Source: an uncultured Candidatus Saccharibacteria bacterium (GTDB lineage: Bacteria; Patescibacteriota; Saccharimonadia; Saccharimonadales; Saccharimonadaceae). From it: a stretch of DNA of 64,000 nucleotides. Below the pieces are notes generated by a model. It was not told the origin of the DNA. It ran no database searches and was given only the letters and a program-made list of their open reading frames with translations. Each line of letters opens with the position of its first letter. The first letter of the stretch is position 1. Made by a program: the position numbers and the translations under genes. The stretch lies in the NCBI GenBank assembly GCA_945873065.1, contig CAMCBN010000006.1, positions 26,743-90,742 on the forward strand, in the 5' to 3' direction. Shown one piece after another: positions 56,170 to 62,640 of this stretch.

Positions 56170-57876
56170 TCATGCGGATGTGGTGGAATTGGTAGACACG
56201 CATGCCTTAGGAGCATGTGCTTTCGAGCGTGAAGGTTCAAGTCCTTTCATCCGCACCACGACTCCCCTATACGAACCCGCACCAAGCGGACTCGGCCCGG
56301 GAGCAGTCGCAGCCAACGAAGTGCGCTCACCCGTCAGGGTGGGCGCTTTTCGTTGGGTGACTACTCCTCTGGAGTGGTCACCCGAGAGGAGCTGTATGTC
56401 CTTGTTGCTGCTGTCCCCGCTATGATCCTTGGCTGTAATGTTACCTTCGTCACTGTCGTCTGGGTCTGGTTGGTGGATGTCACCGTTGCTCTTCAGACTG
56501 GACTGCGGTCCTGGTTGGCTGTGGCATGCAGTCCACTGCAGCCTGGAGCTGGTCAGCTGGTCGAAGGGGGAGTTGAGGCTGGCGGCAGCACTGGTGGTGC
56601 TGGTGTGGTCGTGGACGATGACCGGTGCCACGGACGATACCGACTCCTCAGACCTCTCCACACTTTCCACACTCTCGCTCTCATCACTCTCCACGCTCTC
56701 CTCACTCTCCACCTTCTCGTCACTCATTGGCCCGCTCTTCGGTTCGCCCTCCCTGATGACTCGCCCGTGTTCGTCGATCTCCGGGTTGACCAGCACCTTC
56801 TCGAAGAAAACCTGGTTGAGCTGCTTCTTGAGGTGGTCTGGCGCCGCCTGGTACAGGCGGTGGCAGTCCTCGAGGAGGTCCAGGGCCTGAGACAGGTGCT
56901 GGCGTACGGCCGTGGTGTCGGCTTGGTAGCCGTTGAGCTGTCGCTGGATGCTCAGCAGCTCTCGGCTCAGTCGCTCTTGTTCATCTTTGAGCAGATCCAG
57001 GGGGATGGCTCCGCTGTAGTGAGCCTGGAGGAGTTGGCGGCGCTGGTCCTCGATCTGGGTGCGACGGATGGTCAGGGAACGGATGTCGTGCTGACTCGTG
57101 GCCTCGATCCGCTCCAGCTCTTCAAGCAGATACCGCTCGATTACCTCCCGGTCCTGGTGTGACAGGTGGATCTGCCGGTAGACATCGGACATACGGGCTT
57201 CGACCTGCTCGATGAGCACAGCCCGGAAGGGGCAGTCGTGCAACCGATGCCTCCTGGCGCACACGAAGTAGGGGTAGACCACTCCACTGTGGTTCTTGGC
57301 GTTCTGGACCAGCAGACGAGCACCGCACTGGCCGCAGACCACGGTGCTCTTGAGGAAGTGGTTGTGCAGGCGCTGGCGCTCACCGTTGCGGTGGGAGTCG
57401 AGCACCGCCTGGACCTGGTACCAGGTCTCGGCATCGACCAGAGCCGGGTGTTGGCCGGGATACTCCACACCTTGGAACTGCACGACTCCTCGGTAGTAGG
57501 GATGACGCAGCAGAGTGTGCAGTCGGTTCTTGGTGATGGGCTTGGCCGGCTTGCTTGGGGCGGCTGGCAGGTCGAGTCCCAGTCCGGCCAGGTGTTCGGC
57601 CAGCTGAGCCACAGTCCAGTTACCGGTAGCGTACTGGCTGAAGGCCAGGCGCATGAGAGGTGCTCGCTGCTCATCGAGCTCGACAGTGCGGATCTCCCGG
57701 CCTTGGGCGTCTCGACCTCGGACGTTGCGGTAGCCCAGTGGCGCCTTGCCCAGAGTTCCGCCGTTCCTGGCTTTCTCACCCATCCCCTTGATGACCTCGT
57801 TGGCCAGGTTGCGGGAGTAGAACTCGGCGATGGAGCTCATGATGCCGTGCAGTAGGATCACAAGACCGGTAAAATC
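56170..57876 (-). pseudogene. Large serine recombinase, N-terminal catalytic domain missing; 3' end reads through tRNA-Leu antisense
   Basis: TGLVILLHGIMSSIAEFYSRNLANEVIKGMGEKARNGG... Recombinase domain plus zinc ribbon CGQCGARLL...YFVCARRHRLHDCPF; no resolvase catalytic N-terminus, stop TAA shortly upstream. Confidence 0.85.
56174..56258 (+). tRNA. tRNA-Leu(TAG)
   Basis: GCGGATG/CATCCGC acceptor, anticodon loop CTTAGGA, long variable arm, encoded CCA. Confidence 0.97.
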
Positions 57877-57925: not shown

Positions 57926-57954
57926 TTGCACATGCATGGAGTTTAAGTTACACT
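57926..57954 (+). promoter_or_regulatory. Promoter TTGCAC-N17-TACACT of the tRNA-like RNA
   Basis: -35 at 57926-57931, -10 at 57949-57954, spacer 17; RNA 5' end 10 nt after the -10, the same spacing as tRNA-Thr(GGT). Confidence 0.65.
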
Positions 57955-57963
57955 CAATTATAT

Positions 57964-58082
57964 GGGGTGCGAAGCGGCGTTGGATCGCCGCCACGCCGCG
58001 ATCGTTGGTGTGTGAAAGCTGACAGCCAATACTGGTGAAAGTCAGACGCTAGCATGGATAGTTCGAGTCTATCCCGCGCCCC
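57964..58082 (+). ncRNA. Candidate tRNA-like structured RNA, class unknown
   Basis: Closing helix GGGGTGCG/CGCGCCCC (8 bp); T-arm GGATAG-TTCGAGT-CTATCC; GCGGCG-TTGGAT-CGCCGC arm; CTGAC...GTCAG internal arm. Confidence 0.6.
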
Positions 58083-58150: not shown

Positions 58151-59095
58151 TTATTTTGTGCTCTGACTTAGTAACATTATTTTTTCCACTGAACCGCTCT
58201 TCTTATTCTTGACGGTTATTACCTTGTGCGGTCGACTATTTGGATAGACATGCACGATCTGACTGTGACCACTCTTGAACGTATGGCGTATAGTGCACCC
58301 GTCTTTAAATTGCGAACTGGTCAGCCTGTAGGTCTTGTCGACTGGACCCTCGTCTTTCTTACGCCTGCTTTTCTTCGCATGAGGTGGCTCGATACCCTTC
58401 TTCTCCAGAAGTTTGTCGAGAAGTTTTCTGCACCCGCCACCTTTTCGGCCGGTTATAAGACGATTGTCAATCGATAGGCGAGACCGCTCAAAATACCAGT
58501 GCTCACCCGTGCGACGGTTATAAGGGGTCTCGCGTTCTTCGTGGCGCAGGCGATGGTCGAGAAGTAGTATATCTTTCTCGGACATTTCAGACCACACACC
58601 CGATGCGGAGGCACTCACGGTAGTTATAAAATACATCTGTCGAGCGTCATCGCTACGAAAACACTGGAGTGTTCCATCAGTCAACAAGGCGTACACAGTA
58701 TTTGAATTAGAATTATTTCTCACTTCAAGTGGACCATTTGAGAATTTGTGTAACGTTTTTCCGACTTGCATCTCAGATTCGGTCAACAAGACCCAATAAC
58801 CTATATGCTTCTGCGAGAGCACGTCCTGTTGTTCGGTAGTGGTGGCCTCACTAGAAACAAATAGCCTTTTGAGCAGACTGGACCTCCGTCGTTTCATGCG
58901 ATTTGTCGGGATCTCATCATAGGTACGTTGCCGTTCCTCAAATTTTGCAACTTCTGTATCGGTATATCCGTCAGGTGCGACATCGTTTTGAACGAGTAAA
59001 GTTGCGACTGTCCGCGCATAATCCATGATGTCTTGCATATCCAGAGTCGACGCTTCGTAGTCTCTCGCGACTTTCTGCCAATCGATGTTTGACAT
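58151..59095 (-). CDS. Hypothetical protein (start MSNIDWQ likely)
   Basis: Long ORF with coding-like composition; no recognised domain. Confidence 0.65.
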   Translation of the reverse strand: MSNIDWQKVARDYEASTLDMQDIMDYARTVATLLVQNDVAPDGYTDTEVAKFEERQRTYDEIPTNRMKRRRSSLLKRLFVSSEATTTEQQDVLSQKHIGYWVLLTESEMQVGKTLHKFSNGPLEVRNNSNSNTVYALLTDGTLQCFRSDDARQMYFITTVSASASGVWSEMSEKDILLLDHRLRHEERETPYNRRTGEHWYFERSRLSIDNRLITGRKGGGCRKLLDKLLEKKGIEPPHAKKSRRKKDEGPVDKTYRLTSSQFKDGCTIRHTFKSGHSQIVHVYPNSRPHKVITVKNKKSGSVEKIMLLSQSTK

Positions 59096-59628
59096 CGTCG
59101 AGTAACCTTCCCCTGGGGCGGTATTCGTCATATTTGACGATTGCCACCAGGTTATCGCCCGGAAAAAGAAAGGTCAAGACCTAAGGGTAAATATAAGCGC
59201 TATCTTATTGATAGAGCAGAAAACAAGAGTCGATGGCGAAATGTCAGCAACCTACTCCAACATAGCACAAAGCTGGTTGGATCCGGTGTCGACGCGGATC
59301 GAGGCGAGGTCGATGACGACGATCTCCACCGAGGGCCACCGTAGCCCGGCTCGGGAGACTCTAGTTCACGCCTACGCTACGATAGCGGTCTCCAGGCGTC
59401 CCAGGAGAGACCTTGTAGCGGACGCGCAGAGTAGTCCCGGCCACCAGCAGCATGGTGTGGATCACTCGGTACATGTAGCTGGCCGAGGGCGATGGTCATC
59501 CCTTGAGCTGTCGTACCGCCAGCACTAGTTATACCCTCATCTGCCAGGAGCCTCCATATCCTTAGCTTGGGACACGATCCGTGTAGGCTATACTCTCAAA
59601 GCCAACGAGACCGAACGGAGCGACAGGA

Positions 59629-60001: not shown

Positions 60002-61481
60002 TCAGCAGTAATAAGCCAGTCGTGGATCTGCTGGCTTATCCTCCTCGAGACCAACAACCACCATCCAGTCGAACTGCTGACCTTTGCCAGCATGTCCAGT
60101 CAGGAGATGCACTCCGCCACGGGTTATGAGTGAGTCAGCATCGCCGACCTGAATGCGCTTCTTAACCTGGTCTGGTGTGATGCCTTCCTGCAGAAGATCG
60201 AAGCACCAGTCGATCGCATTAGACAGGGCCGTTCGCTCGTCCGGATCCTGTTCATTATCGAGGCTAACAGCCTGACAAAGGTATTCATGTTGATCTTCAG
60301 CTTCTCGGAATTCTTCAAGTGAAATTGCTTGCAATGTGCTTCGTACTCTTTGCGCGACCGACTTATCTAACACGCCTTCGTCCCACAGGCTATACTGCAG
60401 GCTACTCTCTTCTTGATCTCTTTGTCGACAAAACGGCGCCGATACTTGCTGCGCGCAGAAATCCCGATTCGTTGCTGAGGAACTCTTTCTAGGATGCCTT
60501 CGCAAAACCGCCTGAGGTAAAGGGCTTCCTCTTCTGTATCTTTAAAATACAGATAGCCAGCCAGACCACCAGCGGGCCAAGAATCAGGATTGGCCGCAGC
60601 CAGTGTTTGTCCACCTGTCAGGGCCTTGAGCGAATTTACCGCCTTCAACACAGCCGGGGATGAGCGGAAAGATTCAGTGAACTTAATAGTGTTATCACAC
60701 TCACAGCCTTTAGCTGCTTCATGACGGATTCAGGTTCTGCTCCAGCAAAACGATATATTCCTTGCGCCAGATCGCCGGCATATGTTGTCTTTCCGTAACC
60801 GATACGCTGTACAATTCGGAGTTGCTGTGGTGTTAGATCTTGAAATTCGTCAACGATGATAGCGCCGAAATGATGTCGGTAGAGCGATGCTACCTCATCG
60901 TTAGCAAGAATTAGTTCGGCCAGCCGTGGCAAATCGTCGTAGGTTAACCGCTTTTCGGACTGGCGCTGCTGCTCGATCCGTAATGCATATTCATCGCCTG
61001 AACGTTCGATCTCAGTTAGAACCTCTTCATCGGTCGCCTTGCGTCGCTTTGCTGAACTGATCTTGCTCTGTACGTCCGCAGCTAAATAATAGTTTAGATT
61101 CTGTGCACGACATTGTTGTGCCACCCAGTCACTTTGCGGCATGGTCCATGATGGTGAGTCAAGGCCGATCACATTGCCATGAGCCTGAATGATCCGGGCG
61201 GAGAGACCATGGAAGTTGCACACCGTGACTGCCTCACGCATCTGGCGTGGCGTCAGGTAGCGACTCAAGCGATCGCGCATGTTGTCCCGAGCTCGATTAG
61301 TGAATGTCGTTACCAGGATGCGTTGAGGTGCCTTGATGATCTGCCGAGAGAGCAAGCCCTTCACACGTAACGCCAAAGTCTCGGTCTTACCGCAGCCAGC
61401 AGGAGCGACAACAAGTAGTGACAACTCGGGGTAATCCCGAACGAGTGCCTGTTTTGAAGTAATATCGACCATTTCAAGCAT
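60002..61481 (-). pseudogene. UvrD-like helicase (GajB-like), two frameshifts and truncated C-terminus
   Basis: APAGCGKTETLALRVKGLL, TFTNRARDNMRDRL, IIVDEFQDLTPQQLRIVQ, then frame changes near 60705 and 60425: FTESFRSSPAVLKAVNSLK..., LLTGHAGKGQQFDWMVVVGLEEDK. Confidence 0.8.
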
Positions 61482-62245
61482 TTTCGATATCGCTGAGCAG
61501 ATTCATGATGCTTGTAATTTTTGATGCAGTTGTTTCGTCTAGTGAATTTGCCACTACGATCGCCCCTTGAATCTTATACTTGCTCTTACTTCGCAGGAAG
61601 GCGGCGATATCAGTTTTGGTTGGCAATCCATTTGCGTCCGCATACTTTATGTTATTCAACTCGTTTTTGCTGAATGTGTTGCTGTTCTGTAGGGCTGTCC
61701 ACAAACTTCCTGCATCAAGTGCTTTAGTGTATTCTTCTTCGAGATCCTTTTCGGAGATCCAGATCGAGTGCTCACTAAAGTCGCACTCTTGTAGGCCGAT
61801 ACTCTTGGACGTATTATCGACCGCATCTCGGTCAATCAACAATGACAGAGGGATATTGAATCCTTGATTTCCAAACAGCCTCCAGATCGCCCCCATGTCG
61901 CCGGCGCCTTCAGCTTCGACCACACTGATCCCAAAACGATCTAAATCGCGTCCAGTGAGTTCGGCGACTCGCTCGAGAATGACTCGATCAGCCGCTCCCT
62001 CAACTGCTATTACGCGGCGAGCGGTCAGAGGTTCTAACTTATTACGTCCCCACCATCGAAGCATTGCACGCTGATCATTATTGAGGATCTGAGCAGTCGG
62101 CTGAACGACCTTACCGCCATCTCGTACCGCTACAATCAACTCAGGATCAAATGCACTCACAATATCAGGCGAGTGTGTTGCGATGATCTTCTGGTTCTTT
62201 CCATTCTTCAGCAGTCGAGCAAGGCCACGCTTGAGCACATTCAAT
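61474..62245 (-). pseudogene. OLD-family nuclease C-terminal part (GajA-like), N-terminal ATPase missing
   Basis: NQKIIATHSPDIVSAFDPELI then TOPRIM VIAVEGAADRVILERVAELTGR...LSLLIDRDAVD...DLEEEY; overlaps start of the helicase gene by 8 nt. Confidence 0.75.
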
Positions 62246-62640
62246 ACGAGACGCAGATTGCGATCGCCCGGACGGTCGCCCCGTCTGATGTTGAGATCGC
62301 CAGAATCGATGCCGAAACTCGTCTTACCGACACCAGGGCAAACGCCGCCCTGACAGAGGCCGATGCAAGAAAACGCATCAACGATGCGAGCGGTCTTCAT
62401 AGCGAACAAATCGCCCGTGAGTCGCAGTTTGCTCAGCGAGACGAACTGAATCTGCGCAAAGCACAAGAAGAGTCGAGGAATGCAGAATTTGCATTTTCCA
62501 TCCAGCAAGCAAACAATCGCATTGAAGAAGAAAATGAACTGCGCAAACAAAGGATCAAGGAGCGACGCGTTGCGCGGGAAAAATTCTGGGAGAAGGTGCT
62601 ACCGTTGACCTTGTTGGAAATGCGGAACGGGTTGAGGTAG
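62242..62640 (+). pseudogene. 5'-truncated coiled-coil protein
   Basis: Heptad-rich DVEIARIDAETRLTDTRANAALTEADARKR...; no convincing start, frame begins at the junction with gajA-like sequence. Confidence 0.5.

Follow-up and report, generated by a model that had tools for sequence, protein, structure and literature searches.

A 64,000-nucleotide (nt) stretch of contig CAMCBN010000006.1 from an uncultured Candidatus Saccharibacteria bacterium (hereafter the window) contains, at positions 57964–58082 of the plus strand, a 119-nt element that belongs to a previously uncatalogued family of Saccharibacteria RNA genes, absent from Rfam 15. An earlier note, made from the sequence alone, had described the element as a tRNA-like RNA, driven by a promoter but distinct from canonical tRNAs. 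This description is borne out by homologs in nine genomes, covarying helices, -10-like boxes across the family and the lack of both an anticodon and an encoded CCA. The RNA is not a tRNA, and decoding is excluded for practical purposes. That the family exists and has the secondary structure set out below is, in our judgement, practically certain. Known bacterial tRNA mimics are few, and our literature searches, which covered the literature in part, returned no account of such an RNA from Saccharibacteria. The genomes of these bacteria are about 1 Mb or less and leave little room for idle genes. With 26 covarying pairs and a clear conserved core, the family amounts to a tRNA look-alike that cannot decode and whose partner can be searched for by experiment.

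Relatives and consensus structure

The covariance search in other Saccharibacteria that the earlier note had proposed returned homologs with covarying helices. A model built on two sequences retrieved a relative in a termite-gut Saccharibacterium (genome G208, contig WRHJ01000002.1). A corrected model, in which arm 3 (see below) was included, retrieved relatives in G815 and G763, and in G037 upon rescoring, while a five-sequence model recovered G754, G818, G804 and G720 out of sample at 86–102 bits. The family thus spans nine genomes, the source genome and eight others, from three families of one Saccharibacteria order; the two copies in G818 may be strain variants of one locus. The relatives have E values of 1e-7 to 1e-24, the members are 114–171 nt long, and distinct members are mostly 48–74% identical in pairwise comparison; the relatives in the other genomes lie at 50–75%. 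Member scores of 76–111 bits compare with 18–25 bits for genuine tRNAs, the nearest background.

The RNA gene is accessory: it is gained and lost, is at times found with mobile DNA, and has a patchy distribution. Within one genus for which every candidate was scored, 3 of 19 genomes carry it. The covariance model found no member outside the window's own genome in a 146-genome sample of the whole phylum, and a pattern scan for the D arm across 381 genomes of the phylum gave chance matches only, the source genome aside. As the largest searches scored the best 8–35 candidate sites per genome, the prevalence given here is a minimum. BLAST searches of phage and plasmid nucleotide sequences returned no relative, and none of the nine matches from pattern scans of viral contigs was accepted as a member by the model. 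The viral contigs L076 (5396–5418) and L078 (11161–11183) hold a smaller hairpin pair, CCG-UUAAG-CGG followed by GGGAGG-UGCAAGU-CCUCCC, in which the family T-loop stands beside a D-like loop; the model rejects it as a member. Weak model matches at L085 and L089–L093 proved to be real tRNAs, and those at L073, L074 and L088 were not accepted.

The structure was established from an alignment of eight genomes made with MAFFT by sequence only and folded with RNAalifold, independently of our covariance model. The same five arms emerged, with 35 pairs, 26 of which have changes on both sides. Overall, 95.4% of the cells were paired versus 71.8% in column shuffles and 31–46% when partners were slid, and none of 500 shuffles reached any of the five measures. 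The consensus comprises an acceptor-like stem of 8 base pairs (bp), a D-like arm of 6 bp, arm 3 of 5–6 bp, arm 4 of 5–7 bp and a T-like arm of 6 bp. The window element itself folds with a minimum free energy (MFE) of −55.6 kcal/mol (z score −4.42), a stability matched by 0 of 200 shuffles.

Four helices named in the earlier note are real, being present in the sequence and covarying in the relatives. The acceptor-like stem pairs GGGGTGCG (57964–57971) with CGCGCCCC (58075–58082) over 8 bp, with two-sided compensatory changes at 7 of 8 pairs and 95.3% of cells paired. In the D-like arm GCGGCG-TTGGAT-CGCCGC (57974–57991) and in the T-like arm GGATAG-TTCGAGT-CTATCC (58056–58074), two-sided changes affect 4 of 6 pairs each and all cells are paired (100%). 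Arm 4, CTGAC ... GTCAG (58019–58045), encloses an inner CCA/TGG hairpin and is supported by covariation (helices 4 and 5). Inside it the relatives mostly have GGGTAATC ... GAGCC, and the arm of most relatives holds GGGUAAUC ... GAGCC; the window's arm 4 departs from this consensus. The alternative 7-bp pairing GCGGCGT/ACGCCGC, once thought to compete with the D-like arm, finds no support in the covariation of the relatives. What the earlier note had overlooked is a fifth arm, arm 3, in the place of the anticodon arm (57992–58012; CACGCC, loop GCGATCGTT, GGTGTG), which has two-sided changes at 5 of 5 consensus pairs. The structure of lowest free energy for the single sequence (stem 41–48 with 83–90) was discarded: it is broken in G208, and putting arm 3 in place of one of its helices raised the score of the G208 relative from 51.3 to 67.7 bits.

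Among unpaired bases, conservation is highest in the D- and T-loops and in the junction, with UGAA.G and GUUAGCAU; those that do not vary at all are AA ahead of the D arm, UGAA.G linking arm 3 to arm 4, and G..GC.U ahead of the T arm. The first joiner of the junction, UGAAAG (58013–58018), is near-invariant, its UGAA and last G being identical in nine distinct members. The second, ACGCTAGCAT in the window (58046–58055) and ACGUUAGCAU in the family, is likewise unpaired and highly conserved. In both members whose first joiner reads UGAAGG or UGAAUG (L072 and L082), the GCAU that precedes the T arm is changed to GCCU as well; from these joint changes a contact between the two joiners is possible.

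The D-like loop has the consensus UURGAU (TTAGAT or TAAGAT in the relatives), and the T-loop is mostly UGCAAGU in the relatives and UUCGAGU in the source genome. The two loops change together. The first purine of the D-loop is G in the source genome, where the T-loop is TTCGAGT, and A in the others, where it is TGCAAGT, so that this purine covaries with T-loop position 55 (G with U in the source genome, A with G elsewhere). The next D-loop base is an invariant G, and T-loop position 56, which it faces, is C or U. The co-change fits a tRNA elbow and the letters are compatible with one; the pair could form the contact that the earlier note had envisaged, with the proviso that the co-change stems from few events. 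The acceptor-like and T-like stems would presumably stack coaxially. Two relatives have a hairpin inserted within the T-loop; the inserts, at L072 (1501–1650) and L087 (1501–1643), measure ~20 nt or more, and AAGU is kept after them.

Signals of a gene surround the RNA. A -10-like box lies 0–9 nt upstream of the stem in 8 of 8 loci examined, with a summed score of 50.7 versus a maximum of 40.9 in 2000 shuffles. In four of them (G208, G815, G763 and G037) the RNA is followed, 0–60 nt downstream, by a clear terminator hairpin and its T-rich tail. The window copy has a -35-like TTGCAC (57926–57931, plus strand), a weak consensus match, 17 nt ahead of a -10-like TACACT (57949–57954, plus strand); the latter lies 9 nt ahead of the RNA, and not 10 as first stated. 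On its own the -10 box has p ~0.25, a consensus promoter scan listed neither box, and there is no good terminator. The window's own match is weak, and the promoter claim rests on the whole family (0 of 2000 shuffles). Taken as a family, the sequences suggest a stand-alone gene that is presumably transcribed.

Comparison with tRNA

The acceptor-like, D-like and T-like arms of the family follow one another as they do in tRNA. The family also has a possible elbow, an AA linker of two nt at positions 8–9 and a long fourth arm, as in class II tRNAs and selenocysteine tRNA (tRNA-Sec), and some copies lie near tRNA genes. A tRNA, however, has a seven-nt anticodon loop with conserved flanks, and its acceptor/T stack measures 12 bp, or 13 in bacterial tRNA-Sec. 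The stack of the family has 8+6 pairs, which covary. The arm-3 loops share no letters and differ widely in length, from four nt (GAAA at L071) through nine nt in the window copy to long insertions such as that at L075. Further differences from tRNA are the conserved six- and ten-nt joiners around arm 4, the T-loop that is mostly UGCAAGU and its tolerance of inserts. The resemblance to tRNA-Sec or allo-tRNAs raised in the earlier note finds no support: the arm-3 loop is conserved neither in sequence nor in length, and the joiners part arms that touch in tRNA.

The 3' end is equally unlike that of the neighbouring tRNAs. All five tRNAs in the window encode CCA, whereas the RNA is followed by GATTTT, and no consistent CCA is found at the 3' ends of the members. 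The absence of an encoded CCA and of a normal anticodon loop, both claimed earlier, thus stands; CCA may be added to the RNA post-transcriptionally. At the window element, ARAGORN and Rfam reported no tRNA, transfer-messenger RNA (tmRNA) or Rfam family, and the members gave no match at the elements to ARAGORN or to the Rfam tRNA model RF00005. A search of 4227 Rfam families up to E 10 was also negative for the window element and the copies in G208, G815, G763 and G037. It is the lack of a conserved anticodon loop, of an encoded CCA and of any ARAGORN or Rfam match that sets the RNA apart from tRNA.

Like the tRNA-like domain of tmRNA (RF00023), the RNA combines a T arm and an acceptor stem without an anticodon. 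At only 114–171 nt, however, it has no room for the tag-coding or pseudoknot domains, and ARAGORN and Rfam found no tmRNA at the elements; the G037 copy has a genuine tmRNA gene as its neighbour.

Proposed role and alternative explanations

We favour, with a little better than even confidence, an accessory RNA that acts in trans as a tRNA mimic. Transcription would start at or beside the first base of the acceptor-like stem. Arm 3 is separated from the T arm by arm 4 and the two conserved single-stranded joiners. The tRNA-like body may engage a tRNA-handling protein or the ribosome, and the RNA could serve as a decoy, scaffold or regulator. Its specific functional site would be the junction with the conserved UGAAAG and ACGUUAGCAU. 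The gene is borne sporadically, at a fixed tRNA locus in some lineages and next to mobile-element remnants in others. A bolder and distinctly more tentative idea, which we consider doubtful, is that the tRNA-like body is merely a handle and the multi-arm junction a dedicated active or binding site, with a biochemical role not known so far for a tRNA mimic. If so, the RNA might act as a ribozyme, as a regulator of the ribosome or of tRNA enzymes, or as an accessory factor in defence or competition of these ultrasmall bacteria.

Several observations weigh against a trans-acting tRNA mimic. The co-change of the D- and T-loops rests on few independent events. The window copy could be decaying, since its arm 4 is deviant, its promoter weak and a good terminator missing. 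In G754, G804 and G818 the RNA lies 9–15 nt after a tRNA; there it might be cut out of a tRNA-operon transcript and not be transcribed on its own. Further, the window copy, a truncated copy on contig C3 of the source genome and the G763 copy adjoin remnants of recombinase or helix-turn-helix (HTH) genes, and some of them may be passengers.

On an alternative view the element matters chiefly as DNA: it would serve serine-recombinase elements as an integration target, or travel with them as a passenger, and its structure would be left over from a tRNA-like attachment-site gene. Both copies in the source genome adjoin serine recombinases truncated at the N-terminus, the copy on C3 consists of a 3' fragment that ends exactly at the RNA 3' end, and the G763 copy comes after an HTH fragment. 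Yet five relatives are found at a single, conserved tRNA locus of the chromosome, where the stretches read show no recombinase, and selection on an RNA is indicated by the covariation of the helices, the conservation of the joiners and the promoter boxes, so that we regard this view as unlikely. The description of a mobile region beside a broken recombinase accordingly applies to the window copy and some others, and fails for these five.

A ribozyme or ligand-binding RNA with the junction as its active site would explain why the top-conserved letters are unpaired and lie there (UGAA.G, GUUAGCAU and the AA before the D arm). However, no known ribozyme model in Rfam matches and there is no hint of cleavage or splicing products, and we consider this rather improbable.

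The chances of a cis-acting riboswitch or leader that controls a downstream gene are slim. A tRNA-like fold with an elbow of the D-loop/T-loop type occurs in a non-tRNA bacterial RNA, the yjdF riboswitch (PMC9142559); a ligand-binding junction is conceivable in the family, and several copies have downstream terminators. The yjdF riboswitch is, however, an mRNA leader, whereas the family gave no match to the Rfam yjdF model and has no common downstream gene, which makes a cis role unlikely. The next genes lie on the opposite strand in the window, G208, G763 and G037, and the G754 copy is followed by a further tRNA gene.

Very improbable, in turn, is a divergent tRNA of the tRNA-Sec or allo-tRNA kind that still decodes. 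An acceptor-like stem of 8 bp, a D-like stem of 6 bp and the length of the fourth arm would suit it, as would the real tRNAs adjacent in four genomes, but the variable arm-3 loop, the missing CCA, the 8+6 bp stack with its two joiners, the hairpins inserted in two T-loops and the silence of ARAGORN and the Rfam tRNA models all argue against it. Bacterial Y RNAs of the YrlA type are non-coding tRNA mimics with their own gene and with tRNA-like D- and T-loops, features that the family shares along with a length of 110–170 nt, but a Y RNA that works with the Ro60 protein was rejected as having a negligible chance, because TROVE/Ro60 (PF05731) was not found in the source genome G000 (one control genome was positive) and the Rfam search up to E 10 gave no match.

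Genomic neighbourhood

In the window the RNA sits between a recombinase gene without its catalytic domain and a gene for a 326-aa protein, adjoining a decayed Gabija system. The former (56170–57861, minus strand) is divergent from the RNA and encodes a large serine recombinase that lacks the N-terminal catalytic domain (Pfam Recombinase and Zn_ribbon_recom; PHROG integrase from profile position 207). The end of its broken open reading frame (ORF) overlaps a tRNA-Leu gene (56174–56258, plus strand) in antisense orientation, which suggests an old integration at that tRNA. The gene for the 326-aa protein (58151–59131, minus strand) is convergent with the RNA, and its product has no match in Pfam, PADLOC or PHROG. 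Fragments at 60002–62550 (minus strand) match GajB (two ORFs) and the C-terminal part of GajA. The Thr-Tyr-Thr tRNA cluster of the window holds neither a copy nor a relic of the RNA.

No protein gene is common to the stretches read around the members. In G754, G804 and G818, tRNA-Tyr directly precedes the RNA; the G720 copy follows tRNA-Tyr by ~0.7 kb, and the G815 copy lies near tRNA-Thr of the same locus. In G208 the RNA is preceded by ftsH.

The second copy in the source genome (G000:C3:3525–3632, minus strand) is 92% identical to the window over 57975–58082. It is probably a pseudogene, because its first 11 nt are missing; at that point begins a serine recombinase gene of which the C-terminal part is present. 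Its substitutions within helices preserve pairing, with one compensatory change from A-U to G-C in arm 4. At this junction (L032, 3525–4092) the 5'-truncated RNA copy joins the C-terminal ORF of the recombinase, which reads back into the D-like arm, possibly via an 18-nt shared stretch. Finally, ~200 nt upstream of the G815 copy lies an ORF with a CdiA C-terminal-like domain (L098, 390–824).
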